DNA of 32,052 nucleotides from an uncultured Geobacter sp. (GTDB taxonomy: Bacteria; Desulfobacterota; Desulfuromonadia; Geobacterales; Geobacteraceae): assembly GCA_903925075.1 (NCBI GenBank), contig CAIYDQ010000345.1:1-32052 (forward strand). Direction: 5' to 3'. Below, one piece after another: positions 4,332 to 22,293 of this stretch. The position numbers and the translations under genes are program-made. Each line of letters begins with the position of its first letter. The first letter of the stretch is position 1. The notes beneath the pieces are model-generated. The model made no database searches, had not been told where the DNA came from, and saw nothing but the letters and a program-made list of their open reading frames with translations.

Positions 4332-6806
4332 ATGCAGACGTTAGTCGAGCTTTTTCAAACCTTCCGGGCGCTGGGCGACAAGACCGCCTTCGTGAACCGC
4401 ACCGGCGTGCGGCGCTTCCGGGTCTCCTATGCGGAACTCTCCGAACTCTCCCTGAAAATGGCCGCGCTGCTGGCCCAACAGGGCGTGGAGCCGGGGGATC
4501 GGGTGCTGATCTGGGGGCCGAACTCCTCCTGGTGGGGGATCGCCTATTGGGGCATCATCATGCGCGGCGCAGTCGCCGTTCCCGTGGATTTCATGTCGGA
4601 CCCGGGGCGCGCCGCGTCCATCCGCGCCCTGACCGACGCCAAGCTCGTCATCCAGAGCCGCTTCAAGCCGGAGCGCTTGCAGGAAGTAAATTCGCTGCTG
4701 CTGGAAGACCTGCAGCACCTGCTGGCGGACGTGAAGCCGAGCGCGGAGATCCCCCGGCCGGTTCCCGACGACCTGGCGCAGCTGATTTACACCTCGGGCA
4801 CCACCGGCAACCCCAAGGGGGTGATGCTTACCCACAAGAATCTGGTGGCCAACATGACCCAGATCAACAAGCAGGTGCCGATCATCACGCCGGAGTTCGC
4901 CTTTCTCTCCCTGCTGCCGCTCTCCCACATGTTCGAGCAGATGGGGGGCTTTTTCACCCCGCTCTACCGCGGCGCCTCGGTGGTGTATCTGCGCACCCTG
5001 AAGCCCTCCGCCATCATGGAGGCCCTTGGCGAGGAGGACATCTACGTGATCATGTCGGTGCCCCGCCTGCAGCAGCTGCTGAAAACCACCATCGAGCGGG
5101 AATTGGCGGAAAAGCACCTGATCGGGCTCTTCGACGGCCTGTCCAAACTGGCGGCCCGGCTCCCCAAGAGCGCGCGCCGACTGCTCTTTTACCCGGTTCA
5201 AAAGAAGTTCGGCAAACACTTCACCGTTTTCGTTTCCGGGGGCGCGCCTCTCGACCCGGAGGTCTTCAACTTCTGGGACGGCATGGGGTTCACCGTGTTG
5301 GAGGGGTATGGCCTGACCGAAACCTCGCCGGTACTCTGCGTCAACACCATGGAGCGGCAGGTGGCCGGCGCGGTCGGCCCGCCGCTGCCGGGCGTGGAAA
5401 TCAGGCTTGAGGGCAAGGAGGTGCTGGCTCGCGGCGACAACGTCTTTCCCGGCTACTACCAAAACGAAAAGGCCAGCCGCGAGGCCTTCAGCGCCGACGG
5501 CTGGTTTCGCACCGGCGACTTGGGCGAGATCGGCCCGGACGGCTGGCTTTGCATCAAGGGACGGGAAAAGGAGCTGATCGTCACCGGCGCCGGGGTCAAC
5601 GTCTATCCCGACGAGTTGGAGGGGGTGCTGAACAAGACGCCGGGCGTGAAAGAGGCCTGCGTCGTCGGCCTCGACCGGGGAGGCGGAGAGGAAGTGCACG
5701 CCGTGCTGATCCTGGAGGGGAGCGACGCCAAGCCCGACCTGATCGTGGCGCAGGCCAATCAGAGCCTGGACACGCTGCACCAGATCACCGGCTACACCGT
5801 CTGGGGCGAGCCCGAGTTTCCCAAAACCACCACGCTCAAGATCAAGAAGTTCGAGGTGCTGGAGAAACTCGAGAAGGGCGACGCCGCTGACGACGAGGGC
5901 GCTTCCAAAGACGCGCTGATCAGGCTGATCGCCAAGGTGACCGGCGCCGGCGTCGCCGAGATCCGCGAGCAGTCCCTGCTGGTGGGAGATCTGGGGCTCA
6001 CCTCCATCGGCCGGCTGGAACTGGTCAACTTCCTGGAGCAGCAATATCGGCTGGATATCGAGGACTCCCAGATCGGACCGCAGACCAAGGTGTCGGACCT
6101 GCGCCAGATCATCGCCAAGCGGGAAAAGGTGAAAAGCGACGGCCACCACCGATTCTGGACCAACTCTGCACCGGTGCGCGGGCTGCGCATGCTCGGGGAC
6201 GCGATTTTCCTCTATCCGCTGTTTCGAAGCTTCGTAACCCTGGAGGTGCGCGGCGTCGAGCGCCTGGCCAAGCTGGCCGGGCCGGTGGTATTCGTGGCGA
6301 ACCACCTGAGCTATTTCGACCAGCCCTCGCTCATGTTCGCGCTCCCCAAGCAGATCCGCTATCGCACCGCCACGGCGGCCTGGGAGGAATTCTTCTTCGG
6401 GGAGTACCACGGCCTCAACCTTCTCTGGCGGCGGCTTAGCTACCAGTTGGCCACCCTGCTGCTCAACGTTTTCCCGCTGCCGCAGACCCGCGGCTTCAGC
6501 GGCGCGTTGAAGTTCATGGGGAGGCTCACCGACGCCGGCGTCAACACCCTGATCTTCCCGGAGGGTTCGCACTCCAGAGACGGCAAGATGCACGACTTTC
6601 AACTGGGGCTGGGGGTGATCGTCAAGGAGCTGGGGATACCCGTGGTGCCGATCAGGATCGACGGCACCCGGAAGGTGCTGGCGCCGGAGGAGAGTTTTCC
6701 CAAGCGCGGCAAGGTGACGGTGACCTTCGGGGAGCCGCTTTATTTCCGTTACGAGGAGCCCGCCGAGATCGTCGCCCGTGCCCAGGCCGCGGTGGCGGAG
6801 CTGTAG
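4332..6806 (+). CDS. Trifunctional acyl ligase - ACP - PlsC-type acyltransferase fusion
   Basis: 824 aa in three domains. Residues 1 to about 500 are an AMP-forming acyl ligase: the P-loop YTSGTTGNPKG is near 152-162, GYGLTETSP near 326, and the GDLGEIGPDGWLCIKGREKE hinge region near 396-415. Residues of about 527-595 are an acyl carrier protein with the motif DLGLTSIG; Ser558 is the predicted phosphopantetheine site. Residues of about 620-824 are a PlsC acyltransferase with H658-x4-D663 (HLSYFD) and FPEG at 742-745. The order is the reverse of E. coli Aas (acyltransferase then ligase), and the middle ACP could carry the acyl group between the two active sites. It opens the cluster and has a good AAGGAG site. 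I infer activation of a free fatty acid and transfer to a lysolipid or related acceptor; the substrate is unknown. Confidence 0.9.
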   Translation: MQTLVELFQTFRALGDKTAFVNRTGVRRFRVSYAELSELSLKMAALLAQQGVEPGDRVLIWGPNSSWWGIAYWGIIMRGAVAVPVDFMSDPGRAASIRALTDAKLVIQSRFKPERLQEVNSLLLEDLQHLLADVKPSAEIPRPVPDDLAQLIYTSGTTGNPKGVMLTHKNLVANMTQINKQVPIITPEFAFLSLLPLSHMFEQMGGFFTPLYRGASVVYLRTLKPSAIMEALGEEDIYVIMSVPRLQQLLKTTIERELAEKHLIGLFDGLSKLAARLPKSARRLLFYPVQKKFGKHFTVFVSGGAPLDPEVFNFWDGMGFTVLEGYGLTETSPVLCVNTMERQVAGAVGPPLPGVEIRLEGKEVLARGDNVFPGYYQNEKASREAFSADGWFRTGDLGEIGPDGWLCIKGREKELIVTGAGVNVYPDELEGVLNKTPGVKEACVVGLDRGGGEEVHAVLILEGSDAKPDLIVAQANQSLDTLHQITGYTVWGEPEFPKTTTLKIKKFEVLEKLEKGDAADDEGASKDALIRLIAKVTGAGVAEIREQSLLVGDLGLTSIGRLELVNFLEQQYRLDIEDSQIGPQTKVSDLRQIIAKREKVKSDGHHRFWTNSAPVRGLRMLGDAIFLYPLFRSFVTLEVRGVERLAKLAGPVVFVANHLSYFDQPSLMFALPKQIRYRTATAAWEEFFFGEYHGLNLLWRRLSYQLATLLLNVFPLPQTRGFSGALKFMGRLTDAGVNTLIFPEGSHSRDGKMHDFQLGLGVIVKELGIPVVPIRIDGTRKVLAPEESFPKRGKVTVTFGEPLYFRYEEPAEIVARAQAAVAEL

Positions 6807-6836
6807 ACCGCTACCTTAATAAGAGGAAACCACAGC

Positions 6837-8072
6837 ATGACGTCCCACCCGATCTCGCTCCCCTACCGCCGCTACGCCTTGGGGCTGTTGTTGGCGGTGA
6901 ACCTGCTCAACTACATCGATCGACAGGTGCTCTTCGCCGTTTTCCCCCTGATCAAGATCGACCTGCACATCACCGACACCGAACTGGGTCTTTTGGGCAG
7001 CGCCTTCATGTTCAGCTACATGCTGTTGGCGCCGCTCTTCGGCTGGCTCGGCGACCGCTGGAGCCGCGTCAAACTGGCCTCGGGCGGCTTGATCGTCTGG
7101 AGCCTGGCCACGGCCTTGGCCGGTTTCGCCCCGGGCTACCGGACCCTGCTCGTCGCTCGCGGCACCGTCGGCGTCGGCGAGGCGAGCTTCGGCACCGTCT
7201 CGCCCGGCCTCATCGCCGACTTTTTTACCAAGGAACAACGCGGCCGGATACTCTCCTGGTTCTACGTGGCCATCCCGGTGGGGAGCGCCCTCGGCTACCT
7301 GCTCGGCGGGGTGCTCGGACAGAGGTTCGGCTGGCACGCCGCCTTTTTGATGGTGGGCCTTCCCGGCCTGCTGCTCGCCGTTCCCATCGCCCTGCTGCGC
7401 ACCCCGCCGCGAGGCGGCGACGAGGCGGCAGCGGGGACGCCGGCCAAGGCCACCGGCTACGCCTCTTTGTTCAAGAACCGCTCCTTCGTCTGCAACACCG
7501 CCGCCATGGCCGCCATGACCTTCGCCATCGGCGGGCTCGCCCAATGGATACCCTCCTTCCTGTTCCGCATGCACGCCTTGAACGTGGAAAAAGGGAACAC
7601 GCTCTTCGGCGCCACCACGGTGCTGGCCGGCATCCTGGGCACCCTGGCCGGCGGCTGGCTCGGCGATCGTCGGCAAAAAAAGAGCGCCAGCGGCTATCTG
7701 CTGGTCTCCGGGTGGGGCTTTCTGATCGGCACTCCCTTCGCCGCCTGGGCCATCCTGGCGCCCAATCTCACCGTCTGCATGTCCGCGATCTTCGTGGCCG
7801 AATTCTTCCTCTTTCTCAACACCGGCCCCCTGAACACCGTGATCGTCAACGTCACTCCCGCCTCGATGCGCGCCATGGCCTTCGCCGTCAACATCTTCTT
7901 CATTCACGCCCTGGGCGACGCCGTCTCTCCTTCCATCCTCGGCTGGCTCTCCGACCACTGGGGATTGCGCAGCGCCCTGTTGGTCACGCCCGTCGCCATG
8001 GCGCTGGCCGGGTTGTTCTGCTTCATCTGCTGCCGCTTCGTGGCGAAGGACATGGCTCAGGCCGAGAGCTGA
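6837..8072 (+). CDS. MFS transporter, Spns (spinster)-like
   Basis: 411 aa with about twelve hydrophobic segments. The N-terminus contains NLLNYIDRQVLFAVFP, typical of Spns-like major facilitator proteins, and the loop 2-3 motif GWLGDRWSRVK (MFS motif A). GVGEASFGTVSPGLIADFF lies in helices 4-5. Eukaryotic Spns proteins export sphingosine-1-phosphate or lysophospholipids, and bacterial relatives occur in lipid loci. Context therefore suggests a lipid or lysolipid substrate; this is inference. It starts 30 bp after the ligase fusion with AAGAGGAAA as ribosome binding site, so the two are probably co-transcribed. Confidence 0.85.
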   Translation: MTSHPISLPYRRYALGLLLAVNLLNYIDRQVLFAVFPLIKIDLHITDTELGLLGSAFMFSYMLLAPLFGWLGDRWSRVKLASGGLIVWSLATALAGFAPGYRTLLVARGTVGVGEASFGTVSPGLIADFFTKEQRGRILSWFYVAIPVGSALGYLLGGVLGQRFGWHAAFLMVGLPGLLLAVPIALLRTPPRGGDEAAAGTPAKATGYASLFKNRSFVCNTAAMAAMTFAIGGLAQWIPSFLFRMHALNVEKGNTLFGATTVLAGILGTLAGGWLGDRRQKKSASGYLLVSGWGFLIGTPFAAWAILAPNLTVCMSAIFVAEFFLFLNTGPLNTVIVNVTPASMRAMAFAVNIFFIHALGDAVSPSILGWLSDHWGLRSALLVTPVAMALAGLFCFICCRFVAKDMAQAES

Positions 8073-8165
8073 GCCGCGGGGAGTTTCAAAACCCGATTTT
8101 GCTGCTATTATTTCGTCTTTGTGCCATGGGCCGAATCTATACTCCCGTGTCAACCGAGGTACTTT

Positions 8166-8993
8166 ATGCCTGGAGACAGAGTAATAGCGCCGGAAGCAGG
8201 CGGTAGCAGCGCCATAAATCGAGATTTTTACGACCGGCTCTGGTCACGCACCAAGCTCGCTCGCCCCGAGCGTTTCAATACCTGGCCGCTGATCGCCAGC
8301 CTGCTGCCGACGGCCGACGCCCGGCTGGAAATAGGCCCGGGGCTGCGCCCCAGACTCCCCATTACCGGCACCCACTTCATCGACATCAGCGCGCCGGCGG
8401 TCGAACGTCTGAACGCCTGCGGCGGACTGGCCCGGCTGGGCGACCTGCCGGAGCTTCCCTTCGACGACCACAGCTTCGACCTGGTCTGCGCTTTCGACAT
8501 CCTGGAGCACGTCGAGGACGACCAGCTGGCCTTCCATGAGCTAAGCCGCGTGCTGAAGAAGAACGGCGTCCTGATCTTTTCCGTCCCGCTGCATTCCGTG
8601 CTCTGGAACAACTTCGACGACTTCGTCGGGCACGTGCGCCGCTACGAACCCTCGCATCTGTGCGCCACATTGCAAAAGCACAAGCTGCTGGTGAAGATGA
8701 GCGCTTTTTTCGGCATGCAGCCGGCCAGCGTGCGCCTCTTGAACTTGGGCGTCTGGTTTCTCACCCACCGACCCGGCAGCGCCCTCTTCTGGTACAACTG
8801 GGTGCTGCTGCCGCTTAGTCTGTTGTTCCAAAGGCGTCTGAAGTTCTTCAACGGCATGCTCGATACCGACCAGGCCGACGAGATCGTGCTGGTCTGCCGG
8901 CCGGGGCAAACCCGTTGCCAAACGGTGGCGCCTCTGGCCGGGAGCGCCGCAAAGGGGAGGGGAAGGGTCCCTGCCAAGAAAAAACGGCAGTGA
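8166..8993 (+). CDS. Class I SAM-dependent methyltransferase
   Basis: 275 aa. The SAM-binding motif I LEIGPG is near residue 54, and the acidic end of strand 2 is HFIDIS. LPFDDHSFDLVCAFDILEHV is the familiar Methyltransf_11 stretch. A hydrophobic segment (about residues 190-225) suggests membrane contact. I chose ATG 8166 because GAGGT lies about six bases upstream; an in-frame GTG at 8121 would add 15 residues without a better site. It follows the MFS gene by 93 bp and overlaps the next gene by four bases (GTGA). The acceptor is unknown; a lipid, sugar or quinone-like headgroup are all possible. Confidence 0.82.
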   Translation: MPGDRVIAPEAGGSSAINRDFYDRLWSRTKLARPERFNTWPLIASLLPTADARLEIGPGLRPRLPITGTHFIDISAPAVERLNACGGLARLGDLPELPFDDHSFDLVCAFDILEHVEDDQLAFHELSRVLKKNGVLIFSVPLHSVLWNNFDDFVGHVRRYEPSHLCATLQKHKLLVKMSAFFGMQPASVRLLNLGVWFLTHRPGSALFWYNWVLLPLSLLFQRRLKFFNGMLDTDQADEIVLVCRPGQTRCQTVAPLAGSAAKGRGRVPAKKKRQ

Positions 8994-9841
8994 ATAACCC
9001 CGAGCCAAGGACCAAGGCCGCGGCGCCCAACGCTTTGACCGTCGATCTGGAAGACTGGTATCACGGCTGCTGCTCCGCGGCTGCTCCGCCGGTCCCGGCG
9101 GAGCAAAGGCGCGTGCGCCGCAACACGGAGTCGATCCTCTCCCTTTTGGCCGACTGCCGGGTGCAGGCCACCTTCTTCGTGCTGGGCTCGGTCGCCGAGC
9201 AGGATCCCTTCCTGGTCCCCATGATCGCAGCCGCGGGACACGAGATCTCCTCCCACGGCTATTCCCACACCTTGGCGCCGCTGCTTGGACCGGAGAAATT
9301 CCGCGAGGAGCTGCGGCTAACCGCCGCCATCATCGCCGCGCAGTCCGGTTCGCCGCCGGCGGGCTTTCGCGCCCCCCAATGGTCGCTGGGGAGCGCCACC
9401 CCCTGGGCGATGGAGATCCTGCAGCAGGAGGGATGCCTGTACGACTCAAGCTACAACCCGCTCCCCTTCGTCGGCAACCGCCGCGGCCCTTGCGCCCCCT
9501 TCGCCATCGGCACCCGCGGCGGCTCGATCCTGGAAATACCCCCCATGGTCACCCCCTCACCGATCGGCAACCTCCCCACCGGGGGAGGCTGGGGCTTTAG
9601 ATGTTTCCCCCTGTCGCTGATCCGCCGCAGCATGCAGGCTTTGAACGACGCCGGCGCTCCGGCGGTGCTCTATCTGCACCCGCGGGAGATGGAGGCCTTC
9701 GGTCCCCGGCTGCCGCTGTCGCCGCTGCAGTCCTTTCTGAGCTACGGGCCGAGAAGCGACGCCGCGGGCCGGCTGCGGGAGCTCTTGAGCCGGTTCAGCT
9801 TTCAAACGATGAAGGAGCTTGCCCTATGGGCGTCTGCATAG
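8990..9841 (+). CDS. Polysaccharide deacetylase (NodB-type)
   Basis: 283 aa from a GTG at 8990 that overlaps the preceding stop codon (GTGA), indicating translational coupling. The NodB fold is shown by VDLEDWYH (Asp19, Asp22), the metal-binding HGYSH (His89, His93) and GFRAPQWS. The C-terminal LYLHPREM resembles the region after NodB in deacetylases of PEP-CTERM/exosortase-type EPS loci, but no exosortase is present here. The likely reaction is removal of an N-acetyl group from an amino sugar, perhaps on a glycolipid made by the neighbouring glycosyltransferase. No signal peptide was seen, so it may act on a cytoplasmic lipid-linked sugar. The frame is open upstream to 8915, inside the methyltransferase gene. 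Confidence 0.82.
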   Translation: MNNPEPRTKAAAPNALTVDLEDWYHGCCSAAAPPVPAEQRRVRRNTESILSLLADCRVQATFFVLGSVAEQDPFLVPMIAAAGHEISSHGYSHTLAPLLGPEKFREELRLTAAIIAAQSGSPPAGFRAPQWSLGSATPWAMEILQQEGCLYDSSYNPLPFVGNRRGPCAPFAIGTRGGSILEIPPMVTPSPIGNLPTGGGWGFRCFPLSLIRRSMQALNDAGAPAVLYLHPREMEAFGPRLPLSPLQSFLSYGPRSDAAGRLRELLSRFSFQTMKELALWASA

Positions 9842-10488
9842 TGATGCCGGCCTACAACGCCGAGCGCAGCATCGAGGCCGTAGCCCTGGAGGCCCTCTCC
9901 ACCGGTTTGCCGCTGCTGGTGGTCGACGACGGCTCCCTGGACGGCACGGCGCAGCGGGTCCGCCCCCTGCCGCTTGACCTGATCGGTTTCTCGCAAAACC
10001 GCGGCAAGGGGGCCGCCTTGCGAGCCGGCTTTCAGTGGGCGCTGGCCCGCGGCTACCGCGGCGTGGTCACCGTCGACGCCGACGGCCAGCATGAGGTCCG
10101 CGCCGCCCTGCGTCTTGCCGAGGCCGCCCGGGCCGGCGGGATGGACATCATGATCGCCTCGCGCTACGCACAGTTCGAGGAGATGGCCGGCCTGCGCGGC
10201 TGCTGGAACCGTTTCGGCGTCTGGTGCATGCGAAAGCGCACCGGTTTCGATATCTGCGACAGCCAGTCCGGTTTTCGCTACTACTCCTCGGCGCTGCTGC
10301 GCCGGGTGCCGCTGGAAAGCGACGGCTACGAAATGGAGATGGAGATCCTGCTGAAGGCGTGGCGCAGCGGATATGCGATAGGCTCGCTGCCGATCGCGGC
10401 CAAGGTGGCGGACGGCAGGTCCACCAGTCATTACCGTCCGATTCGCGACACCTGGAACATCTGCATGACCTTTCTGCGCTACATGTGA
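9826..10488 (+). CDS. Family 2 glycosyltransferase
   Basis: 220 aa. The GT-A fold is indicated by IVMPAYNAE at the N-terminus, VVDDGSLDG (Asp34, Asp35) and the DADGQH metal/nucleotide motif (Asp84, Asp86), similar to dolichyl-phosphate mannosyltransferase-like enzymes. There are no transmembrane helices at the C-terminus, unlike GT2 enzymes fused to membrane domains. The start ATG 9826 lies within the end of the deacetylase gene and has AAGGAG at 9811-9816. It closes the first sub-operon of the cluster. It probably transfers a sugar to a lipid carrier or to the cluster's lipid; donor and acceptor are unknown. Confidence 0.87.
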   Translation: MGVCIVMPAYNAERSIEAVALEALSTGLPLLVVDDGSLDGTAQRVRPLPLDLIGFSQNRGKGAALRAGFQWALARGYRGVVTVDADGQHEVRAALRLAEAARAGGMDIMIASRYAQFEEMAGLRGCWNRFGVWCMRKRTGFDICDSQSGFRYYSSALLRRVPLESDGYEMEMEILLKAWRSGYAIGSLPIAAKVADGRSTSHYRPIRDTWNICMTFLRYM

Positions 10489-10927
10489 GGCCGCTTTTCA
10501 ACATCTGCAAAGCGGTGGGGCGAAATAGGTGCTGAATGGTTGCGCTCTTTGCTAGTCTCTGCACCCTTGCTCATAGCCTCGCGCCACCTTCGCGGCTAGA
10601 CCCCCTTTCTCTGACACAACCTCCGCATAATCCCGCTTTGAGCGTCGACGAAAAACCTCTGATTCAGCGAGCTTTTTTGGGCTTTGCTACCTCGCTTTCG
10701 TTAAACCCCCGCCCTTTTTATTTAAATAATGTTGATTATGATTACATTATTAAGTACAATTAATTATATAATGCGGGAGTCGCTCCAATCCTGATCGGTC
10801 CAGTCATAGGCCTTTCCCTTTGACAGAGACCCATCTCGATGCGAGTCGCTATCCCATACCTGGCGCTTTCAACTCCTTCGTTGCTTCACGAGCGCCATAA
10901 CTTCAATGACAGTGGGGGGAATTCTTC
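10489..10927 (+). promoter_or_regulatory. Intergenic region with weak hairpin and A+T-rich promoter island
   Basis: 439 bp that split the cluster. Just after the glycosyltransferase stop, CCGCTTT (10491-10497) can pair with AAAGCGG (10509-10515), but no T-run follows, so it is at best a weak terminator. A sharply A+T-rich island at about 10720-10772, in otherwise GC-rich DNA, ends in TATAAT at 10767-10772. No good -35 box was found at 16-18 bp. It probably contains the promoter for the gene group beginning at 10928. No gene is supported in this stretch. Confidence 0.5.
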
Positions 10928-12310: not shown

Positions 12311-12351
12311 ACGCGGCCCGGGCTTGAACAACTTGCGCGGGGGTTGGTCTC

Positions 12352-13254: not shown

Positions 13255-13512
13255 ATGACGGACGAACTGATAGCCGAGGTAAAGCGACTGATCATCGAGA
13301 GCCTGCGCATCGAGGGGATGTCGAGCGACGAGATCGAGACCGACGCGCCGCTTTTCGGAGAAGGCCTGGGGCTCGACTCCATCGACGCCCTGCAACTGGT
13401 CGTGGGGATGGAGAACGCCTTCGGCGTGGTGGTCCCCGACGCCGCCGTGGGCGCCAAGGTGTTCCGCTCGGTGCGGACCATGGCGGACTACATCGCGCAG
13501 CATGCGGCATGA
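13255..13512 (+). CDS. Acyl carrier protein
   Basis: 85 aa of typical ACP size and acidity. The phosphopantetheine site is Ser42 in GLGLDSIDALQL. It would carry the growing or finished acyl chain as a thioester between the ketosynthase, reductase, dehydratase, thioesterase and acyltransferases of this cluster. AGGAG precedes the ATG. Its stop overlaps the next start (ATGA), so it is translationally coupled to the B12-radical SAM gene. That coupling suggests the radical SAM enzyme may act on ACP-bound chains, which is inference. A second carrier domain sits in the ligase fusion at 4332. Confidence 0.93.
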   Translation: MTDELIAEVKRLIIESLRIEGMSSDEIETDAPLFGEGLGLDSIDALQLVVGMENAFGVVVPDAAVGAKVFRSVRTMADYIAQHAA

Positions 13513-14786: not shown

Positions 14787-14911
14787 AAAACGTGAACCGC
14801 ATCATGCACCGATGCGGTTCGATCCTCACTGCGTCATATTCAAGCCGATGCGGTTCGTGCCTTACGCGTCATTCCCAAACCGATGCGGTTCGTGCCTCAC
14901 CGCATCCTACG
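14772..14911. repeat. Repeat element A: 15-bp inverted ends enclosing three direct repeats
   Basis: CGTAGGATGCGGTGA at 14772-14786 is matched exactly by its reverse complement at 14897-14911. Between them CCGATGCGGTTC recurs at 14809, 14845 and 14880 (spacing 36 and 35 bp), each followed by related sequence. GATGCGGT (14777-14784) can also pair with ACCGCATC (14796-14803). The left end contributes the last four codons and the TGA stop of the radical SAM gene. It looks like a small palindromic repetitive element; no ORF lies within it. Confidence 0.75.
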
Positions 14912-14997: not shown

Positions 14998-15939
14998 ATG
15001 AACTGCTTCATGTTTCCCGGACAGCCGCTGGCACGCTGCGCTTCCCTCCCGGACGACGCCGATTTCGCGCAGATTGCGCAGCTGGTCCAAAAGCTGGCGC
15101 GCTTCGACCTGCAAAACCTCGCCTGGCTGAGCGCGGAAGAGGGAACTGGGGAAGGGAATGGGGAGGGGACTGAGGAGGGGACTGAGGAGGGGACTGAGGA
15201 GGGGACTGAGGAGGGGACTGAGGAGGGGACTGAGGAGGGGACTGAGAACTTGGGCCTGCAGCTTTACGGCGTGGCCCTGAGCCTTTACCGGTTGCGCCGG
15301 CTGCGCCTCGACGGGGTGCAGCCGGATCTGGTGGCCGAACACAGCATGGGAATCTACCCGGCCCTGGTCGCCTGCGGCTCCCTCTCCGAGCCCGACGCCA
15401 TCGAGATCACCTGGCGGATCGGCGCCGCGCTGGCCCGCATGGCAAAAACGCAACAGTACGCGCTGGGGTGCGTGCTCGGCCTGAGAGCGGAACAGGTGCA
15501 GATCATCGCCGACCACAACCGGTTGCATGTTGCCAACCACAATACCTCGCGTCACTTTCTCCTTTCCGGAACCTCCGCCGATATGGCCGCAGCCGTGCTG
15601 GAAGCCGTTGATGCCGGCGCCTTCACGGCCCGCTTCTTCCATTACGACGCCCCGCTGCACACCCCGCCGATCGAGCGCCTGGAGGGGGAAATAGTCGGGA
15701 TCCTTGCCGACTACCGCTTCGCCGAGCCTCTTTGTCCCCTGATCAACCATCTGGACCAGGGGAGCCTGCGCGCCCGGGAGATCCCCAAGTTCCTGCTGCG
15801 CGAACTGAGCCGGCCGGTGTATTGGGAGAAAACCTACCGAGCGCTGCGCGCCGCTGGCGCCGACAGGTTTTTCGAGGTGGGCGCCGGCGATGCGCTGAAA
15901 AAATACAACCGCTGGATAGAGGGCGAAATTGAAAAGTGA
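14998..15939 (+). CDS. FabD-like malonyl/acyl-ACP transacylase with internal tandem repeat
   Basis: 313 aa from ATG 14998 with GGGGGAAAG upstream. The upstream open frame lies in the repeat element and is not used. FMFPGQ at the N-terminus matches the FVFPGQ start of FabD. The nucleophile motif is AEHSMGIYPAL (Ser116; GHSLGE in FabD), and the catalytic His is His221 in YDAPLHTPP. It should load malonyl (or another acyl) groups from CoA to ACP. Residues 48-84 are a Gly-Thr-Glu-Glu repeat encoded by a 12-nt minisatellite; other FabD proteins have only a short loop there. Gly before the nucleophile His-Ser is replaced by Glu, so acyl specificity may be altered. Confidence 0.82.
   Translation: MNCFMFPGQPLARCASLPDDADFAQIAQLVQKLARFDLQNLAWLSAEEGTGEGNGEGTEEGTEEGTEEGTEEGTEEGTEEGTENLGLQLYGVALSLYRLRRLRLDGVQPDLVAEHSMGIYPALVACGSLSEPDAIEITWRIGAALARMAKTQQYALGCVLGLRAEQVQIIADHNRLHVANHNTSRHFLLSGTSADMAAAVLEAVDAGAFTARFFHYDAPLHTPPIERLEGEIVGILADYRFAEPLCPLINHLDQGSLRAREIPKFLLRELSRPVYWEKTYRALRAAGADRFFEVGAGDALKKYNRWIEGEIEK
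15141..15248 (+). repeat. 12-nt tandem repeat (minisatellite) inside the fabD-like gene
   Basis: Six perfect copies of GGGGACTGAGGA run from 15165 to 15236, followed by an imperfect copy to 15248. Two degenerate copies precede them at 15141-15164, making about nine units. Each unit is in frame and encodes Gly-Thr-Glu-Glu, so gain or loss of units would lengthen or shorten the loop by four residues without a frameshift. Confidence 0.93.
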
Positions 15940-16366
15940 CGCCGCCGCGCGCTACCACGAGACCCGGATCAGGGTCCGCTTCAACGAGGTCGATGCCTAT
16001 CGGATCGCCTGGCACGGCCACTACGTGGCCTGGATGGAGGAGGCGCGCAACGACCTGGCCGGCCGCTTCGGAGTCGACGCCGCCCAGATCGCGGCCGCCG
16101 GTTTCCGGGCGCCGGTGGTGGCGCTGGAGCTGAAATACCTGCGACCGGCCCGCTTCGGCGAGGAGCTTTTGCTGCGCACCGCCCCGGTGCGCAGGCAGAC
16201 CGCCACGCTGGAGTTCGTCTGCCGGATCGTCGGGGAGAACGGCAGGCTTTCCGCCAGCGGGCGCACCGTGCATGCCCTGACCGACGGCGAGGGGATCTTG
16301 CTCTACACCCTGCCGCAGCCAATCGCGCAGCGGCTGGCCCGGCTCTACGAATTTCTGGGGGTCTGA
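15929..16366 (+). CDS. Hotdog-fold acyl thioesterase (4-hydroxybenzoyl-CoA thioesterase/YbgC type)
   Basis: 145 aa. The signature RVRFNEVDAYRIAWHGHY corresponds to the RVRY-ETDAMG-V-HGNY block of the YbgC/4HBT group; Asp22 is the likely catalytic acid, with His29/His31 nearby. The start is TTG 15929, overlapping the end of the fabD-like gene, with GAGGG just upstream; no in-frame ATG fits. It would release free acid from acyl-ACP or acyl-CoA. Aryl-polyene clusters also carry a thioesterase of this sort, and the freed acid could feed the ligase fusion at 4332. It couples by TGATG to the next gene. Confidence 0.87.
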   Translation: MKSDAAARYHETRIRVRFNEVDAYRIAWHGHYVAWMEEARNDLAGRFGVDAAQIAAAGFRAPVVALELKYLRPARFGEELLLRTAPVRRQTATLEFVCRIVGENGRLSASGRTVHALTDGEGILLYTLPQPIAQRLARLYEFLGV

Positions 16367-17745
16367 TGGATATCCTGCTCGTTTCCGCCAACCGGGAGAG
16401 GAACCCCTACCCGGTATTCCCCTTGGGGCTTTGCTGTCTTGCCGGCCCGCTGGCAAGCCGGGGACACCGGCTGCGGGTGCTCGATCTTTGTTTCGTCGAG
16501 GATACGGCCGCCGCCCTGAGCGAGGCGCTGGCCGCCTTCGCGCCGGCCGTGGTGGTCGTCTCCATCAGAAATATCGACAACGTCACCTTTCCCGGCAGCC
16601 GCTCCTATCTGGCCGGCGTGCGCGAGATCGTGGACGGCTGCCGCGGCAAGGCGATCGTGATCGTTGGCGGATCTGGATTCTCGCTCATGCCCGTGCAAGT
16701 GCTGGCGCACCTGGACGCGGATTTCGGCGTGGTCGGCGAGGGGGAGGAGGTTGTGCCGGAACTGATCGCCTGCCTTGAAAACGGCATCCCCCCCGAATCC
16801 CTCCCCGGCGTGCTCGCCAGGGGCGCCGCCGGCTATCTGCCGTCCGCTCCGGCGCGGCAGAGGGGGGCCGCCGACCGCACTCTGTTCCAGGTGGAGCGCT
16901 ACCACCTGCATGGCGGCATGGCCAATCTGCAAACCAGGCGCGGCTGTCCCTTCACCTGCATCTACTGCAACTATCCGCTCCTGGAGGGGCGCCAGCAGCG
17001 CCTCAGGCCCATCGCCGAAGTCGTCGACGAAATAAGATCGCTCATCGACGACCACGGCGTGAGCTACCTCTACTTCGTTGACGACGTCTTCAATTATCCT
17101 CCCGACTTCGCCTGGGATCTCTGTCGCGCCATGGCGCGTGAGCGGCTATCGATAAACTGGACCGCCTTCGTCAATCCCGGCTTTGTCAGTGCTTCCCTGA
17201 TCGATGCGATGCTGGCCGCCGGCTGCGACGCCTTTGAATTCGGCAGCGAGTCCGGCTCCGAGCGGATGCTGCACAGCCTGGGCAAGTCCTTCGGAGTCGA
17301 GGAGATCCGCGACGCCTCGCGCCTGTGCCGCCAGGCCGGAGCCGATTTTGCCCATTACCTGCTCTTTGGCGGCCCGGGCGAGAGCGAGGCGACCATCGAC
17401 GAGACCTTTTCCCTGATGGACGAACTGCAGCCAAGCGCGGTGATAGCCATGACCGGCATACGCATATTTCCCGGCACCGCCCTGCATCGAATTGCCGTCT
17501 GCGAAGGTGTGATAACCGAGGCGACCGATCTGCTGGAGCCGGTTTTCTACCTATCGCCGCCGATCCGGGACAGACTTTGCCAGATGGTGGCCGAGCGAGC
17601 CCTGGCGCGCAGGAACTGGGTCGCTCCCGGCATGGAAGTGAACATGAACGACGCCATGTTAGAGGCCCTGCGCCGCTTCCCCGTGCGCGGCCCCATGTGG
17701 AAGCAGTTGAAGCGCCTGACCCGCAGCAGGATCAAGCCGATGTAA
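16366..17745 (+). CDS. Cobalamin-binding-domain radical SAM enzyme (second)
   Basis: 459 aa; the ATG overlaps the thioesterase stop (TGATG). Residues 1 to about 150 form a B12-binding-like domain: LLVSANRERNPYPVFPLG, VVVVSIRNIDN, IVIVGGSGFSLMP and VVGEGE. The radical SAM motif is CPFTCIYC (Cys194, Cys198, Cys201) in TRRGCPFTCIYCNYPLLEG, then FVDDVFN and FGSESGSERML. B12-domain radical SAM proteins are a hallmark of predicted ladderane lipid clusters in anammox bacteria and of related uncharacterised FAS clusters; this protein resembles that lipid-associated type as I recall it, which needs a model search. It sits between the thioesterase and FabG, so an acyl substrate is likely. The chemistry is unknown. 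Confidence 0.86.
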   Translation: MDILLVSANRERNPYPVFPLGLCCLAGPLASRGHRLRVLDLCFVEDTAAALSEALAAFAPAVVVVSIRNIDNVTFPGSRSYLAGVREIVDGCRGKAIVIVGGSGFSLMPVQVLAHLDADFGVVGEGEEVVPELIACLENGIPPESLPGVLARGAAGYLPSAPARQRGAADRTLFQVERYHLHGGMANLQTRRGCPFTCIYCNYPLLEGRQQRLRPIAEVVDEIRSLIDDHGVSYLYFVDDVFNYPPDFAWDLCRAMARERLSINWTAFVNPGFVSASLIDAMLAAGCDAFEFGSESGSERMLHSLGKSFGVEEIRDASRLCRQAGADFAHYLLFGGPGESEATIDETFSLMDELQPSAVIAMTGIRIFPGTALHRIAVCEGVITEATDLLEPVFYLSPPIRDRLCQMVAERALARRNWVAPGMEVNMNDAMLEALRRFPVRGPMWKQLKRLTRSRIKPM

Positions 17746-17758
17746 TCCGGAGGGCAAT

Positions 17759-18493
17759 ATGGAATTCAAAGACAAAAACGTCATCGTCACCGGCGGCACC
17801 CGCGGCATCGGGCGCGCCATCTCGCTGCATTTCGCCAAGCTCGGCGCCCGCGTGATCGCCGCCTACCTCAATAACGACGACGCCGCCGCGGAACTGACCC
17901 AGGCGGCGGCTGGACTGGCGGGCTCCATCAGGACGGTGAAGGCCGACGTCGCCGACTCCGACGGGGCCAGGTCCCTGATCGAATCCGGCAGCAGCGGCGC
18001 CCTCGACATCCTGGTCAACAACGCCGGCATCGTCCGCGACGGATATCTGCCGATGATGTCCGAAATGGATTGGGACGACGTGCTGCGCGGCAATCTGAGC
18101 TCGCTCTTTCACTGCTGTAAATGGGGGGCGCGCAAAATGATCGGCCGGCGCGGCGGCGTGATCATCAATATCTCTTCGGTCTCCGCCTTCTCCGGGACCT
18201 CCGGACAGACCAATTACGCCGCCAGCAAAGGCGCGGCGCTCAGCTTCACCAAATCGCTGGCCCGCGAACTGGGTCCCATGGGCATCCGGGTCAATGCCGT
18301 GGCGCCCGGGCTGATAGCGACCGACATGACCGCCGCCATGAAGCCGGACTTGGTGGATCAAATCGTCAAGAGCGCCTCGCTGGGCCGAATCGGGCGGGTC
18401 GAAGAGGTCGCCGAGGTGGTGGCGTTCTTAGCCTCGCAACGCGCCTCCTACATTACCGGTCAATGCCTGGTGGTGGACGGCGGCATCATCTAA
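17759..18493 (+). CDS. fabG: 3-oxoacyl-ACP reductase (FabG type)
   Basis: 244 aa short-chain dehydrogenase. The NADP(H) site is TGGTRGIG (residues 11-18), with NNAG in the middle. The catalytic set Ser140, Tyr153 and Lys157 appears in the ISSVSAFSG and NYAASK motifs. The size and the C-terminal ITGQCLVVDGG ending are standard for FabG. It should reduce 3-oxoacyl-ACP to 3-hydroxyacyl-ACP during chain elongation. GGAGG lies six bases before the ATG. It is a cluster-specific paralogue; a housekeeping fabG would be elsewhere. Its stop codon lies in a 14-nt duplicated segment leading into the ketosynthase gene. Confidence 0.9.
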   Translation: MEFKDKNVIVTGGTRGIGRAISLHFAKLGARVIAAYLNNDDAAAELTQAAAGLAGSIRTVKADVADSDGARSLIESGSSGALDILVNNAGIVRDGYLPMMSEMDWDDVLRGNLSSLFHCCKWGARKMIGRRGGVIINISSVSAFSGTSGQTNYAASKGAALSFTKSLARELGPMGIRVNAVAPGLIATDMTAAMKPDLVDQIVKSASLGRIGRVEEVAEVVAFLASQRASYITGQCLVVDGGII

Positions 18494-18517
18494 GGGGCAT
18501 CATCTAAGGGGCATCAT
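18483..18517 (+). repeat. 14-nt tandem duplication at the fabG-ketosynthase junction
   Basis: GCATCATCTAAGGG is present twice in tandem (18483-18496, 18497-18510), and a partial third copy GCATCAT runs into the ATG at 18516. Each copy contains TAA and AAGGGG. The first TAA is the fabG stop, and the second AAGGGG is the ribosome binding site of the ketosynthase gene, only about four bases from its ATG. Confidence 0.85.
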
Positions 18518-19730
18518 GGAAAAGAAAAGAGCGCGTAGCATCGCCATAACGGGTCTTGGCATCTTCTCCGCCGCCGGCACGGACGTCGCCTCCTTCGCCA
18601 GAGCGCTGGCAAGCGGGGAAAGCGCCATCGGCCCGGTGGACCTCTTCGACGTCGCCCCTTTTGCCTCCGGCATCGGCGCCCAGCTGCGAGGCTTCGATCC
18701 GCTCGCTCATTTCTCCGCCAGGGACGCTGCGAAAATGTCGCGCGTCGATCAGTTCGGCGTCATCGCGGCAGGCGAGGCCTTGCGCGATAGCGGCGTCTCG
18801 GGCCATTACTCTCCCTACGACATCGGCGTTTCCATGGGCGCGGGGGCCTCCGGCATGCTGCAATGCGAAGCCTGGCTGCAAGAAACCCTGGCCGGACGCA
18901 GGGCCAAGCCGTCGCTATTGCGCGGGCTGCTCCCGGACCGCACCGCGACCACCATCGCCGCCACCTACAACCTGTGCGGTTACTAGTCGAGCATCACCAC
19001 CGCCTGCTCTTCGTCGGCAAGCTCCATCGGTTGGGGCGCCGACCTCGTTGCCACCGGCAGGTTGCGGGCGGTGCTATGCGGCGGTTCCGATTGCCTATCC
19101 CTGCTCACCTTTTCCGGTTTCAATTCCCTCAAAGTCGTCGATCCCTTGCCCTGCTCGCCCTTTAGCCGGGGGCGGCAGGGGATCTCGCTGGGAGAAGCCG
19201 CCGCCTTCATGGTGCTTGAGGACGAAGCGGAAGCGAAAAGGCGCGGGGCGCGCATCCACGGCTATCTCCCCGGTTACGCCGTGACCGGCGAGGCCTATCA
19301 CATGACTGCGCCGGACCCAAGCGGCGAGGAGGGCGCCAGGGCGATGAGCCTCGCCTTGGCCGGCGCCGGGCTTTCAGCCGAGGAGGTGGGCTGGGTCAAT
19401 GCCCACGGCACCGGCACCCCCTTCAACGACCTGGTGGAGTCAAAGGCGATGAAACTGGTTTTCGGCGAGCGCGCGCCGTTGGTGCCCCTGGTCTCCACCA
19501 AGGCCTTGACCGGCCATTGTCTCGGCGCCGCCGGCGCCGTCGAAGCCGTGGCGACAGTCCTGGCGCTCAAAGAGGGTTTGATACCCCAGACCCTGAACTA
19601 TCGGGGAGCCGACCCCGAATGCGACCTCGATTACTGTCACTGCGCTCCCAAGACCACCGATGCCACAGTAGCTCTTTCCAACTCCTTCGCCTTTGGCGGC
19701 AACACCACCTGTCTCGTGTTCCAAGTCTGA
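18516..19730 (+). pseudogene. Beta-ketoacyl-ACP synthase interrupted by one in-frame TAG
   Basis: A 405-codon frame of normal FabF length with a single TAG at 18984-18986. Before it: IAITGLGIFSAAG, VSMGAG and NLCGY. Directly after it in the same frame: SSITTACSSS with the nucleophile Cys (codon 164), then VNAHGTGTPFND and STKALTGHCLGAAG holding both histidines and the Lys, and a normal end SFAFGGNTT. No frameshift or other stop is present. The stop falls where FabF proteins usually have Ser (GPS-T-A-AC), and the next codon is TCG, so one C-to-A change from TCG explains it. As written, translation gives a 156-aa fragment without the active site. Options are a very recent nonsense mutation, a sequence error, or readthrough; I favour the first two. 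Confidence 0.88.
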
Positions 19731-20156
19731 CCAGCGTCGGGTTGTCCGACTACCCCTCGCTCTCCGGGAGCTCTGTAGCTCTGTAGGTCGCGTTGAGGCA
19801 CGAAACGCGACGTTGCGATGATGGCGTTGGAGGTGCTGTTGCGTTTCACGATGCACCCGTTCAACGCAACCTACACATCTGTAAAAAAGCCCCTCACTGT
19901 ATAAGGGCAGGAGAGTTGCGATGATGGCGTCGGAGGTGCTGTTGCGTTTCACGATGCACCTGTTCAACGCAACCTACGCATCTGCAAAAAGCCCCTCCCT
20001 GTACAAGGGCAGGGGAGAGGGTGAAAATCTCGCCACAGCGTTCCCACCCCTCAACTCCTCACATAAAACGGCGCGTCCGCCGAAGCCTAGGCGAAGGAGG
20101 GAGGGGACAGAAATACCGACACTGAGCCGCGAACCCTTGCAACGAAGGAGATCAAC
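19731..20156. repeat. Repeat elements B and C between the two ketosynthase genes
   Basis: This 426-bp gap has no gene. Element B has inverted ends TGTAGGTCGCGTTGA (19782-19796) and TCAACGCAACCTACA (19861-19875), matching at 14 of 15 positions. A roughly 103-bp segment is then duplicated in tandem: 19813-19915 and 19916-20019 differ at only some positions, both containing the TTGCGTTTCACGATGCACC stretch and a CCCCT...AGGGGC hairpin. The remainder leads to GAAGGAG, the ribosome binding site of the gene at 20157. The same end sequences recur at 22506-22598 (element D). Confidence 0.8.
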
Positions 20157-21266
20157 GTGAATCCTGCAAACAACGACATCGTCGTCACCGGTCTTGCCGC
20201 CATATCTGCCGCCGGGGTGGGGACCACTCCTCTTAAACTCGCGCTCAAGCGCGGAGAAAGCCTGCTGCAGCCGGTGCCCGAGGAGATCCTCGGGGAGGTC
20301 GGACACTTTTGGGGCAAGGCCGAAGCATTTCGGGCCGCCGACTTCATGCCGCCTCTCAAGGCCCGCAAGTTCGATCGCTGCAGCCTGCTGGCGGTGGTCG
20401 CCGCGGGGATGGCGCTGCAAGACGCCGCCATCTCTCCCGGCGCCCTCGACGCCACGCGCATCGGCATCGTCCTTGGCTGCGGTTTCGGCGGCATCGCCAA
20501 CGCGGAAGAATTTCTGCGCGGCTACTTCACCTTGGGCGCGGACGGGTTAACGCCCATGCTGTTTCCCAACATCGTGCCCAACGCCGCGGCAAGCAACGCC
20601 TCCATCGAGCACAAGCTGAAAGGTCCCAACGTGACCACCATTCAGCGTTTTTGTTCCGCCGAATCCGCCTTCCTGATGGCCGCGCGCTTTTTGGAGGAGG
20701 ACAGAGCCGACGTCATCCTGACCGGCGGAGTGGACGAGGTCTTTCCCGCCATGCTGAAGGGGTTGAAGGCGATGGGGCAACTGCGAGCCTTCGGCGCAGG
20801 TTTCGGGTCCGGATCAAACGAAGAAACCGGCGATCAACCGAGCGAGGCGTCCGCCTCAGGTTTCGGCGAAGGCGCGGGGATGCTGGTGCTGGAGCGCGGC
20901 AGTCGCGCCCGCAGGCGCAACGCCCGGATTTTGGCCGGCGTGGACGGAGTAAGGACCGTCGGCAGGTTCGATCCAGGGGCACGGGAGGAAGCGCTCGACC
21001 GGCTGTTGCCAGGCCCGTATTCGGCGGATATGGTCTCCATCTCGGGGACCGCTCGCCTGGAGAAGGCTCTGATGAATCGTCTGCCGGCGATTCCCGTGCT
21101 CGATGCCGGCCGAGTACTGGGGCGCTCGCTCGCCCTGGGCGGACTCGCCTTGGTGGGGCTGGTGGCGATGCTTAAACCCGGGGATGTCGGTCTGCATCTC
21201 GCGGCTTCGCCGGAAGGTCCGTACTACGCGATCGATCTTCATGCAGGCGACGATGTTCGATCCTGA
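20157..21266 (+). CDS. Ketosynthase-like / chain-length-factor-like subunit
   Basis: 369 aa from a GTG with GAAGGAG six bases upstream. The N-terminal half is clearly thiolase-fold ketosynthase: IVVTGLAAISAAG, IVLGCGFGG and SGFGEGAGMLVLE. A Cys is retained at the nucleophile position (Cys166 in TTIQRFCSAES). The NAHGTGT motif is replaced by VSISGTA, and the KALTGH motif by GRVLGRS, so both catalytic histidines are missing and the C-terminal half is shortened. This pattern suits a partner subunit (chain length factor) that pairs with an active ketosynthase, as in aryl-polyene systems. Its natural partner is the interrupted enzyme at 18516. It overlaps the dehydratase start. Confidence 0.83.
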   Translation: MNPANNDIVVTGLAAISAAGVGTTPLKLALKRGESLLQPVPEEILGEVGHFWGKAEAFRAADFMPPLKARKFDRCSLLAVVAAGMALQDAAISPGALDATRIGIVLGCGFGGIANAEEFLRGYFTLGADGLTPMLFPNIVPNAAASNASIEHKLKGPNVTTIQRFCSAESAFLMAARFLEEDRADVILTGGVDEVFPAMLKGLKAMGQLRAFGAGFGSGSNEETGDQPSEASASGFGEGAGMLVLERGSRARRRNARILAGVDGVRTVGRFDPGAREEALDRLLPGPYSADMVSISGTARLEKALMNRLPAIPVLDAGRVLGRSLALGGLALVGLVAMLKPGDVGLHLAASPEGPYYAIDLHAGDDVRS

Positions 21267-21639
21267 TCCCACCGCCTACCTTCCCCATCGGCCGCCGTTT
21301 CTCTTTGTCGACAGGCTGTTAGCCCTGGAGGCGGGAGTCGCCGCAACCGGCGTGTTTGCCGTGGCTGCCGGAGGCTATTTCCCGCCTCTTTTGCTGGTGG
21401 AGGCCATGGCGCAGGTGGGCGGCATGGCCGCGGGCCAGCAGCAAGGGGAGGGTGGCGTGCTGGCCGCGCTCGCGCAGGTGGAACTGCCAGCGGAGGTCGC
21501 ATCGGGAGCCGTGCTCACCGTGCGATCCCGCATCGTCAAGACCTTCGGGCGTCTTATCCAGGTGCAAGGCGAGGTGCGTAAAGAAGGGGAAGTGATTGCG
21601 TCCGCGACTATCACGCTCGCCATCGGGCGCGGCGCGTGA
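21253..21639 (+). CDS. FabZ/ApeP-like 3-hydroxyacyl-ACP dehydratase
   Basis: 128 aa from ATG 21253, overlapping the previous stop; an ATG at 21241 would add four residues. The hotdog dehydratase motif is YLPHRPPFLFVDRL with catalytic His12, and the acidic partner is Glu50 in LLLVEAMAQVGG. Compared with FabZ, the FPG-PIMPG segment before the Glu is reduced to YFPP, as in the shorter ApeP-type dehydratases. It would dehydrate 3-hydroxyacyl-ACP to the trans-2-enoyl form. No enoyl reductase is present in the cluster, so the chain could remain unsaturated (polyene-like) unless a housekeeping enzyme helps. Confidence 0.82.
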   Translation: MFDPDPTAYLPHRPPFLFVDRLLALEAGVAATGVFAVAAGGYFPPLLLVEAMAQVGGMAAGQQQGEGGVLAALAQVELPAEVASGAVLTVRSRIVKTFGRLIQVQGEVRKEGEVIASATITLAIGRGA

Positions 21640-21681
21640 TCTAAGTCTATTCCCGCGTAAATCCGATACAGAGGAGTATTT

Positions 21682-22293
21682 ATGAAAAAAAAGCTCTTAT
21701 TTCTGTTCATCGCCTTGGCGATTGTCGCCTCTGTGCCTGCGTATGCCGATGACGACCCGGCGCTGCACGCCTTGGAGACGCTACGGCGCGGCTTCGCCGG
21801 CACCTCCGATTTCACCGCCGACATCCGGCAGGAGAAGCAGTTGGCCCTGATGAAGCAGAAGATGGTTTCCAGAGGAGAGGTCCGGTTTAAAAAGCCGGAC
21901 TCTTTTTTTATGGAACTGTTCCCGCCTCACGCGAGCCGGCTCCTTTTAAAGGACAACCTCATGGTGATGCGGCTGGTCGAACAAGGCGTGACCGACAGGA
22001 TCGTGCTGCCGCCGGAGGAAGGGCTGAAAAAATGGTTCGCCTATCTGGGCAGGCCGGTGAACGCGCTCCCCGAGGGGGTGGAGGCCAAGGCGGAGCGCCA
22101 CCAGAAACAATGGGTCCTGCACCTTTTCCCAAAGGGCAAAGGAAGCGTGCGGCAGTTGACGCTGACCTTCGACCTGGAGGGAAAAATCAGCCGCATCGTC
22201 ATCGACGAGTGCAACCGAGACCGGACCGTTCTCTTATTCAGCAACATGCGGCGCAACGTCGGTCTGCAGGAAAAGGATTTCACGACGGAGTAG
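21682..22293 (+). CDS. LolA-like outer-membrane lipoprotein carrier
   Basis: 203 aa with a clear signal peptide (MKKK, hydrophobic core, cleavage near AYA-DD at about residue 23). The body has the LolA-type pattern: DFTADIRQEKQ, RGEVRFKKPDSFFMEL, LTLTFDLEGKISRI and an amphipathic beta-rich layout. LolA homologues in aryl-polyene and related lipid clusters are thought to carry hydrophobic product across the periplasm. GAGGAG lies upstream of the ATG, 42 bp after the dehydratase. An MMPL-type exporter normally accompanies such genes, but none is encoded here. Inside the coding region a terminator-like hairpin is present (21880-21909). Confidence 0.82.
   Translation: MKKKLLFLFIALAIVASVPAYADDDPALHALETLRRGFAGTSDFTADIRQEKQLALMKQKMVSRGEVRFKKPDSFFMELFPPHASRLLLKDNLMVMRLVEQGVTDRIVLPPEEGLKKWFAYLGRPVNALPEGVEAKAERHQKQWVLHLFPKGKGSVRQLTLTFDLEGKISRIVIDECNRDRTVLLFSNMRRNVGLQEKDFTTE
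21880..21909 (+). terminator. Terminator-like hairpin inside the lolA-like gene
   Basis: GTCCGGTTT (21880-21888) can pair with AAGCCGGAC (21892-21900) through a three-base loop with one G-U pair, and seven Ts follow at 21903-21909. The shape is that of an intrinsic terminator on the coding strand. It encodes the conserved FKKPDSFF stretch, so it may be a by-product of codon choice. Whether it attenuates transcription is not shown by the sequence. Confidence 0.4.

Follow-up and report, generated by a model that had tools for sequence, protein, structure and literature searches.

The window analysed here is a stretch of 32,052 nucleotides from an uncultured Geobacter sp. (assembly GCA_903925075.1, contig CAIYDQ010000345.1), and it forms one whole contig of a 6.55 Mb genome in 368 contigs. 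Positions 4332 to 22293 carry a run of + strand genes in which a type II fatty acid synthase (FAS II) set stands with three radical S-adenosylmethionine (SAM) enzymes. Genes were called from open reading frames, and families were assigned with Pfam and NCBIfam profiles. The run has the following order:

4332..6806, + strand: acyl/AMP ligase with PP-binding and PlsC acyltransferase domains (ligase-PlsC), 824 amino acids; PF00501, PF00550, PF01553; accessory
6837..8072, + strand: major facilitator superfamily (MFS) transporter; PF07690; accessory
8121..8993, + strand: class I SAM methyltransferase (Methyltransf_11); PF08241; accessory
8969..9841, + strand: polysaccharide deacetylase with DUF3473; PF01522, PF11959; TIGR03006 at 191.9 bits, below the cut-off of 276.2
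9829..10488, + strand: family 2 glycosyltransferase (GT2); PF00535; match to E. coli ApeJ
10928..12310, + strand: radical SAM/SPASM protein; PF04055, PF13186
12352..13233, + strand: LpxL-type acyltransferase; PF03279; matches ApeJ, not ApeD
13255..13512, + strand: acyl carrier protein (ACP) with GLDSID serine; best NCBIfam model NF006617, just below its cut-off (66.3 vs 70 bits); match to E. coli ApeE
13509..14786, + strand: B12-binding radical SAM protein A (BchE/HpnR/HpnJ-like); PF02310, PF04055, PF13282
14998..15939, + strand: FabD-like acyltransferase with a (GTEE)n insert; PF00698; TIGR03131 and TIGR00128 below cut-off
15929..16366, + strand: 4HBT thioesterase; PF13279; match to E. coli ApeK
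16366..17745, + strand: B12-binding radical SAM protein L, TIGR04072 (rSAM_ladder_B12); 398.9 bits against a cut-off of 360
17759..18493, + strand: FabG-type ketoreductase; PF13561; match to E. coli ApeQ
18516..19730, + strand: ketosynthase (KS), interrupted by TAG; PF00109 in both halves, PF02801 in the second half
19782..19995, no strand: copies of a dispersed repeat resembling repetitive extragenic palindromic (REP) elements, between KS and CLF; 61 genome matches at up to 3 mismatches
20157..21266, + strand: KS-like partner of the chain-length-factor type (CLF); PF00109 only
21253..21639, + strand: FabZ-like hotdog protein, ApeP-like, without the catalytic-His segment; by alignment, with profile scores below cut-off
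21682..22293, + strand: LolA-type carrier; PF03548; NF053544 (flexirubin LolA2) at 52.3 bits, below the cut-off of 125

An earlier sequence-only reading of this DNA had named these protein types, and each is present at its place by open frames and by Pfam or NCBIfam; the Methyltransf_11 protein at 8121-8993 was missing from its list. The KS is present, but its frame is broken. The FabZ-like assignment of that reading stands by alignment, but scores fall below the cut-offs of Pfam (21.3 vs 23 bits) and NCBIfam (54.7 vs 113). Its description of the genes as almost all coupled fails at a gap of ~440 bp before the SPASM gene and at a gap of ~430 bp, with repeats, between KS and CLF. The CLF keeps the active-site Cys in 11/11 aligned rows and has no match to the KS C-terminal domain. 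Within the FabD-like gene, a 12-bp unit repeated nine times in frame (15139-15246) encodes the (GTEE)n stretch, and a further repeat lies directly upstream of the gene at 14808-14900.

Loci for comparison came from a scan for the TIGR04072 gene, with the best 80 loci kept. Fifty-eight are named loci of Geobacterales type, titled Geobacter, Geotalea, Geomonas, Oryzomonas, Pelotalea and similar, and these also take in records titled only Desulfuromonadales, Deltaproteobacteria or Proteobacteria. Forty-eight of the fifty-eight reach at least 9 kb upstream of the TIGR04072 gene and forty-four at least 5.5 kb downstream. On the upstream side the FabD-like and 4HBT genes are found in 48/48 named loci, the deacetylase, GT2, SPASM, LpxL and ACP genes in 47/48 each, and a close relative of protein A in 46/48 (66-76% identity). 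On the downstream side the counts are 38/44 for FabG and KS, 37/44 for CLF and LolA, and 36/44 for the FabZ-like gene. With the upstream genes present in 46-48 of the 48 loci, the downstream genes in 36-38 of the 44 and the order maintained, the cluster is more than a chance assembly; it is a genuine and conserved gene set. The comparison of gene order across Geobacterales, which the sequence-only reading had proposed, did not show these genes to be unrelated neighbours in most genomes. Also supported is its reading as one conserved lipid pathway, in which an aryl polyene (APE)-like core stands with radical SAM enzymes and a route for export. As a whole that interpretation is partly supported, the role of the radical enzymes being one that we infer.

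Among forty-eight genomes of the family, a close TIGR04072 ortholog (58-100% identity) is present in twenty-four, and any match (E <= 1e-40) in forty-four. The SPASM ortholog (67-100%) occurs in the same twenty-four genomes, in one of which (G032) the copy has two in-frame TGA codons, and protein A is found at 68% identity or more in twenty-three of the twenty-four. Median identity to the window is highest for SPASM (76), ACP (76), protein A (71), FabG (68) and KS (65), intermediate for LpxL (64), GT2 (63), TIGR04072 (62), 4HBT (59) and the deacetylase (56), and lowest for CLF (53), LolA (47), FabD (46) and FabZ (45). Given its slow change, the SPASM protein is more likely a core part of the system than a passenger. 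In genus g13 no FabG follows the TIGR04072 gene, and in the five g13 genomes examined FabG, KS, CLF, FabZ and LolA are kept together at a second place. The cluster thus consists of two modules in these five genomes, both retained.

The ligase-PlsC and MFS genes, which the sequence-only reading had counted as pathway members, do not share this conservation. Within ~10 kb upstream, each has a match in 1/48 named loci (72% and 80% identity, respectively), and in nineteen longer stretches (L031-L049) the pair was found once, in the same genome as the named-locus match. The Methyltransf_11 gene is present in 7/48 named loci (57-60%). Since few loci carry them, these three genes are accessory. LolB-like and MMPL genes lie downstream in 29/41 and 30/41 loci, respectively, and the usual exporter, as predicted from the genes, is LolA with the LolB-like protein and MMPL. 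In the window genome the LolB-like and MMPL genes have open frames on another contig, C211 (L193 973-4224), away from LolA. These copies rule out a loss of the exporter, which their absence from the window had suggested. We also considered a second such cluster around a 34% radical SAM paralogue on contig C95 and rejected it, as no FAS genes were seen there by eye. Upstream of the cluster a Cas6-like gene was observed (L053 1033-1935), whose open reading frame family occurs in thirteen loci.

The copy in the window has features of its own. The KS frame is broken by a TAG at 18984-18986, shortly before the region of the active-site Cys; twelve relatives have Q, R or L at this position, and intact copies of the gene occur in relatives. 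A dispersed palindromic, REP-like repeat stands twice between KS and CLF, where the gap of ~430 bp compares with 0 to ~130 bp in the relatives examined. This repeat has 61 matches in the genome at no more than three mismatches (0 for a reversed-pattern control); a diverged copy outside the 61 follows LolA (22506-22598), and the pattern is absent from the 10.5 kb of contig C211 that were searched. In-frame TAG codons were also found in 2/69 radical SAM matches of the genome, one each at C116:634-1128 and C87:9736-10215. Recoding of TAG, which the KS and these two radical SAM genes might suggest, is ruled out: none of ninety-six ABC-domain matches (150 of 211 candidates scored) has an in-frame stop, so there is no general stop read-through. 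With its KS interrupted, the pathway may be off in the window genome. That this copy is a decaying relic, with a stop in KS, KS and CLF split by repeats, and LolB and MMPL moved to another contig, is a reading to which we give somewhat less than even chances. The stop, the intervening repeats, the distant exporter genes and the lack of general read-through argue for it; against it, all remaining cluster frames are open, as are those of LolB and MMPL elsewhere in the genome, a split cluster with an intact KS also exists in another genus (g13), and a one-base error of sequencing or assembly is possible in a genome of 368 contigs. Decay would concern this copy and not the pathway, and it is compatible with each of the readings of the pathway given below. 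At the end of the window (30547-31336), a 273-bp unit is present in about three copies at 91%, in a frame that runs off the contig and, judged by eye, resembles a methyl-accepting chemotaxis protein.

We compared the cluster with seventeen E. coli APE proteins (CFT073-type cluster), taking gene roles from passages of PMC8253772. Eight window proteins have matches: KS (ApeO and ApeR), CLF (ApeR), FabG (ApeQ), ACP (ApeE and ApeF), 4HBT (ApeK), GT2 and LpxL (both ApeJ) and the FabZ-like protein (ApeP). The MMPL protein of a relative matches ApeM. No counterpart among the seventeen was found for LolA, LolB, the ligase or any of the three radical SAM proteins. The APE set of KS, CLF, ketoreductase, ACP and LolA/LolB/MMPL is therefore present by family and position, with LolA and LolB recognised by Pfam only. 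APE clusters further have two dehydratase halves (ApeI and ApeP), of which only an ApeP-like half is found here, and an aryl-starter ligase of the ApeH type; the ligase is in 1/48 loci, and no window protein matches ApeH. A tree of KS and CLF sequences (71 rows, with the window CLF included and its interrupted KS left out) places the Geobacterales KS in one group (100/100) adjoining the KS of distant Deltaproteobacteria. In a wider branch (99/91) these stand together with ApeO and with two KS from anammox clusters of a second type, and the main anammox KS fall in other branches. Long branches make the placement of ApeO and ApeC unsure.

The single dehydratase half bears on the chain itself. 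The FabZ-like protein keeps the active-site Glu in 22/22 rows, and the segment with the catalytic His (GHFP) is deleted in all eighteen Geobacterales-type rows (18 aligned of 21 extracted), so that of the His and Glu of a catalytic FabZ dehydratase only the Glu is found. By sequence comparison E. coli ApeP likewise lacks the His segment and ApeI has the His motif; according to a passage of PMC8041823, ApeI and ApeP form a heterodimer that has one active site between them. We scanned eighty-two stretches by motif, several genomes being represented more than once and some stretches ending short of the dehydratase region, and found no His-bearing hotdog partner of the ApeI type in frame; the four matches are all out of frame as judged by eye. 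Without the catalytic His a plain polyene chain is doubtful, barring an outside partner. A plain unsaturated chain, which the sequence-only reading had thought plausible, would accordingly be less likely for this lipid.

The three radical SAM proteins set the cluster apart from APE. The sequence-only reading had pointed to the B12-radical SAM lipid models of TIGRFAM, and protein L passes one of them, TIGR04072, which has no match in fourteen control genomes. Protein L carries PF04055 and the B12-binding PF02310, and the Cys residues of its CxxxCxxC motif are present in 29/29 aligned rows. Its AlphaFold model has a predicted local distance difference test (pLDDT) score of 92.5, and the nearest solved fold is TsrM, a B12 methylase (E 1.1e-36, TMq 0.86; 228 bits by sequence), followed by MgmA, AprD4, OxsB, CysS and TokK. 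The position of TsrM Arg69, a residue that lies under the cobalamin (passages of PMC8992657), is Arg in 29/29 TIGR04072 rows. Protein L may thus be a cobalamin methylase, one that could work by radical or polar chemistry. For protein A the best NCBIfam models are BchE, HpnR and HpnJ, all far under their cut-offs. One or two extra A-type genes are found in several loci, and these would fit repeated tailoring. In the SPASM protein, CxxxCxxC and four further Cys are invariant (23/23 rows). Its five structure models have pLDDT of 59.9 to 82.8, and a fold search with the best of them (82.8) returned general relatives only (SuiB, SkfB, anSME), which do not indicate a substrate.

The radical SAM enzymes might instead modify a head group, such as a sugar or polyprenyl carrier, and leave the acyl chain alone. 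The SPASM gene does come after the deacetylase and GT2 genes, all three being present in 47/48 loci; the profile relatives of its protein include BlsE, a cytosylglucuronate decarboxylase (43.8 bits; rank 13), and the fold relatives of the B12 protein include AprD4 bound to paromamine. These relatives are weak and mixed, however, with SuiB, SkfB and anSME ranking above BlsE, and the SPASM protein also occurs near TIGR04072 clusters of FAS type in distant Deltaproteobacteria (five loci, 51-55%). We regard a head-group role as unlikely, if the least unlikely of the three other routes that we weighed.

Outside Geobacterales, TIGR04072 was found in 57 of 392 genomes of a Planctomycetota set (E <= 1e-60, four candidates scored per genome), twenty of them above the cut-off. 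The hydrazine synthase alpha domain is present in 17 of the 35 TIGR04072 genomes tested (in G302 only as a partial, 41-bit match), including seven of the eight with the best TIGR04072 matches, so these seventeen genomes are probably anammox. Five probable anammox loci (L173, L174, L176-L178) contain the deacetylase, KS, CLF, B12 radical SAM, ACP, FabZ, MMPL and GT2 genes, and FabG was recognised in two of them (L173, L174). The window shows the trait of these clusters in having TIGR04072 beside KS/CLF, ACP, FabZ and a ketoreductase. The phytoene-desaturase-like, ligase and methyltransferase proteins of L173, whose genes are matched in 4/6 other anammox loci, have no match among fifty-nine Geobacterales-type sequences. 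Of the five anammox loci, four have a FabZ with the pattern GHF...PG, and the remaining one reads GHY. Two further loci with a hydrazine synthase domain (L171, L172) represent another type of cluster with both L and A types of B12 radical SAM protein, a long LpxL-bearing protein, ACP, KS, CLF and MMPL.

These loci bear on two further routes. The first is a cyclised lipid, ladderane-like or otherwise ring-bearing, in which the radical SAM enzymes would close C-C bonds within the chain. TIGR04072 is named after ladderane clusters, and the probable anammox genomes and the genes shared with the five loci point the same way; on the other side stand the 0/59 result for the L173 proteins, the position of the Geobacterales KS apart from the main anammox KS (in a tree without the window KS), and Desulfotalea, for which passages of Rattray 2009 (PMC2649909) report no ladderanes despite a similar cluster. 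The second, proposed there for Desulfotalea and Kuenenia, would lead anaerobically to polyunsaturated fatty acids or hydrocarbons. It fits the combination of FAS II with radical SAM enzymes and the fact that no enoyl reductase was recognised among the cluster genes by Pfam or NCBIfam, and a single sentence of the same paper names similar clusters in members of Geobacter. It sits poorly with the unmatched phytoene-desaturase-like protein (0/59) and with a dehydratase that lacks its His segment (18/18 rows) and an in-frame partner for it (82 stretches). We consider cyclisation improbable and the polyunsaturated route equally so. Because these L173 proteins are unmatched in the fifty-nine Geobacterales-type sequences, the cluster is not an anammox-type ladderane cluster, though an enzyme of the latter may be at work in it too. 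By its gene content it is neither a standard APE cluster nor an anammox ladderane cluster.

The best reading is an outer-membrane lipid whose chain would be C-methylated by the B12 enzymes. What the analysis shows is which genes are present, in what order and together with which others, the families they belong to and the catalytic residues that are missing; from this we infer the chemical steps and their order. The FabD-like protein would load malonyl units onto the cluster ACP, KS and CLF would extend the chain, and FabG would reduce the keto groups. The FabZ-like protein alone would not dehydrate, so that either it does so jointly with an outside partner or hydroxyls stay. The two cobalamin radical SAM enzymes would then attach carbon groups to the ACP-bound chain, methyls being the most likely, with one more modification by the SPASM enzyme. 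The thioesterase, the LpxL-type acyltransferase, GT2 and the deacetylase would attach the chain to an amino-sugar or lipid anchor, and LolA, the LolB-like protein and MMPL would bring the lipid to the outer membrane. We rate the chances as about even that Geobacterales make a specialised outer-membrane lipid by this pathway, with APE-type machinery as its chassis and radical SAM enzymes for tailoring.

Several points weigh against it. The KS is interrupted in the window genome, where the best other KS is 44% identical (with the second half as query), and the downstream module is not nearby in 6/44 named loci, of which L062, L076 and L078 correspond to contigs of the split genus and L056, L096 and L099 make up the rest. 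Within the APE comparison, LolA and LolB have no match to ApeL or ApeN, the CLF matches ApeR and not ApeC, LpxL matches ApeJ and not ApeD, and ApeH and ApeI are matched by nothing. AprD4, a diol dehydratase, and OxsB share the fold list of protein L, and kinship with TsrM is no proof of methylation. The position of TsrM Glu273, a residue that blocks SAM and is common at this place among radical SAM enzymes (passages of PMC8992657), is I, V, T, L, N or A in 29/29 TIGR04072 rows; with this equivalent missing, the mechanism of TIGR04072 proteins need not equal that of TsrM. Four Acidobacteriota loci (L102, L104, L105, L106) hold proteins A and L side by side with no recognised FAS genes, although three of the contigs are only ~5 kb and L106 has LpxL; the pair may thus have other uses. 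Lastly, titles and abstract openings, in a literature search with most subscription journals outside its coverage, gave no product, substrate or activity of the cluster.

Clusters of this kind are already known, and the Geobacterales set is a distinct variant. Besides the sentence on Geobacter in Rattray 2009, the one paper among those consulted that names clusters in this genus, passages of PMC9902471 list antiSMASH ladderane clusters of unknown function in Desulfobacterota among other phyla. What is new here is that the set is conserved across the family and split in some genomes, that its chassis is APE-like, that one dehydratase half is missing, that protein L has a TsrM-like fold and that the analogy with ladderanes has limits. 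A bolder proposal, which we hold only tentatively and at about one chance in four, is a third class of exported polyketide-like lipid beside APE and ladderanes, in which the degenerate dehydratase would leave a hydroxylated chain, B12-radical SAM enzymes would methylate it repeatedly and the SPASM enzyme would cross-link or desaturate it. If so, cultured Geobacterales would be the first tractable hosts for reading the chemistry of ladderane-associated TIGR04072. According to passages of a 2023 paper (PMC9821293), the enzymes that make the ladderane ladder were unidentified and anammox bacteria were not in pure culture. The TIGR04072 enzyme is common to anammox clusters and cultured Geobacterales, and in the latter it belongs to a compact conserved pathway. 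This suggests that the widespread APE-type machinery for outer-membrane lipids has a radical-SAM version in anaerobes, one in which half of the dehydratase site has unexpectedly been lost.

Set beside known systems, the cluster shares with APE clusters a core of KS, CLF, ketoreductase, a Glu-only ApeP-like dehydratase half, ACP and thioesterase, together with GT2, an LpxL-type acyltransferase, LolA, a LolB-like protein and an MMPL exporter. It differs in having three radical SAM enzymes, a FabD-like protein and a DUF3473 deacetylase, in that no His half of the ApeI type was seen and the ligase is not conserved, and in that counterparts of LolA, LolB, ApeC, ApeD and ApeH are unlinked by sequence. 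With the ladderane-associated FAS II clusters of anammox bacteria it has in common TIGR04072, the deacetylase, KS and CLF, ACP, FabZ, MMPL and GT2. The anammox FabZ, however, keeps its His motif, the best match of the other radical SAM protein is at 26%, the phytoene-desaturase-like protein, ligase and methyltransferases have no match in Geobacterales, and the main KS lies elsewhere in the tree. TsrM, a tryptophan C2-methylase, resembles protein L as its nearest solved fold and in the invariant Arg69 equivalent, and differs in the Glu273 equivalent, missing in 29/29 rows, and in a peptide rather than a lipid context. Deltaproteobacterial TIGR04072 clusters (L111, L115, L116, L118, L120, L121) have FabG, ACP, 4HBT, GT2, KS and TIGR04072 in one run, with the SPASM protein (51-55%) near five of the six on the opposite strand, and their KS form the closest branch; they differ from the Geobacterales cluster in gene order, have no LpxL match and contain no close relative of protein A (a 29% match in L111).

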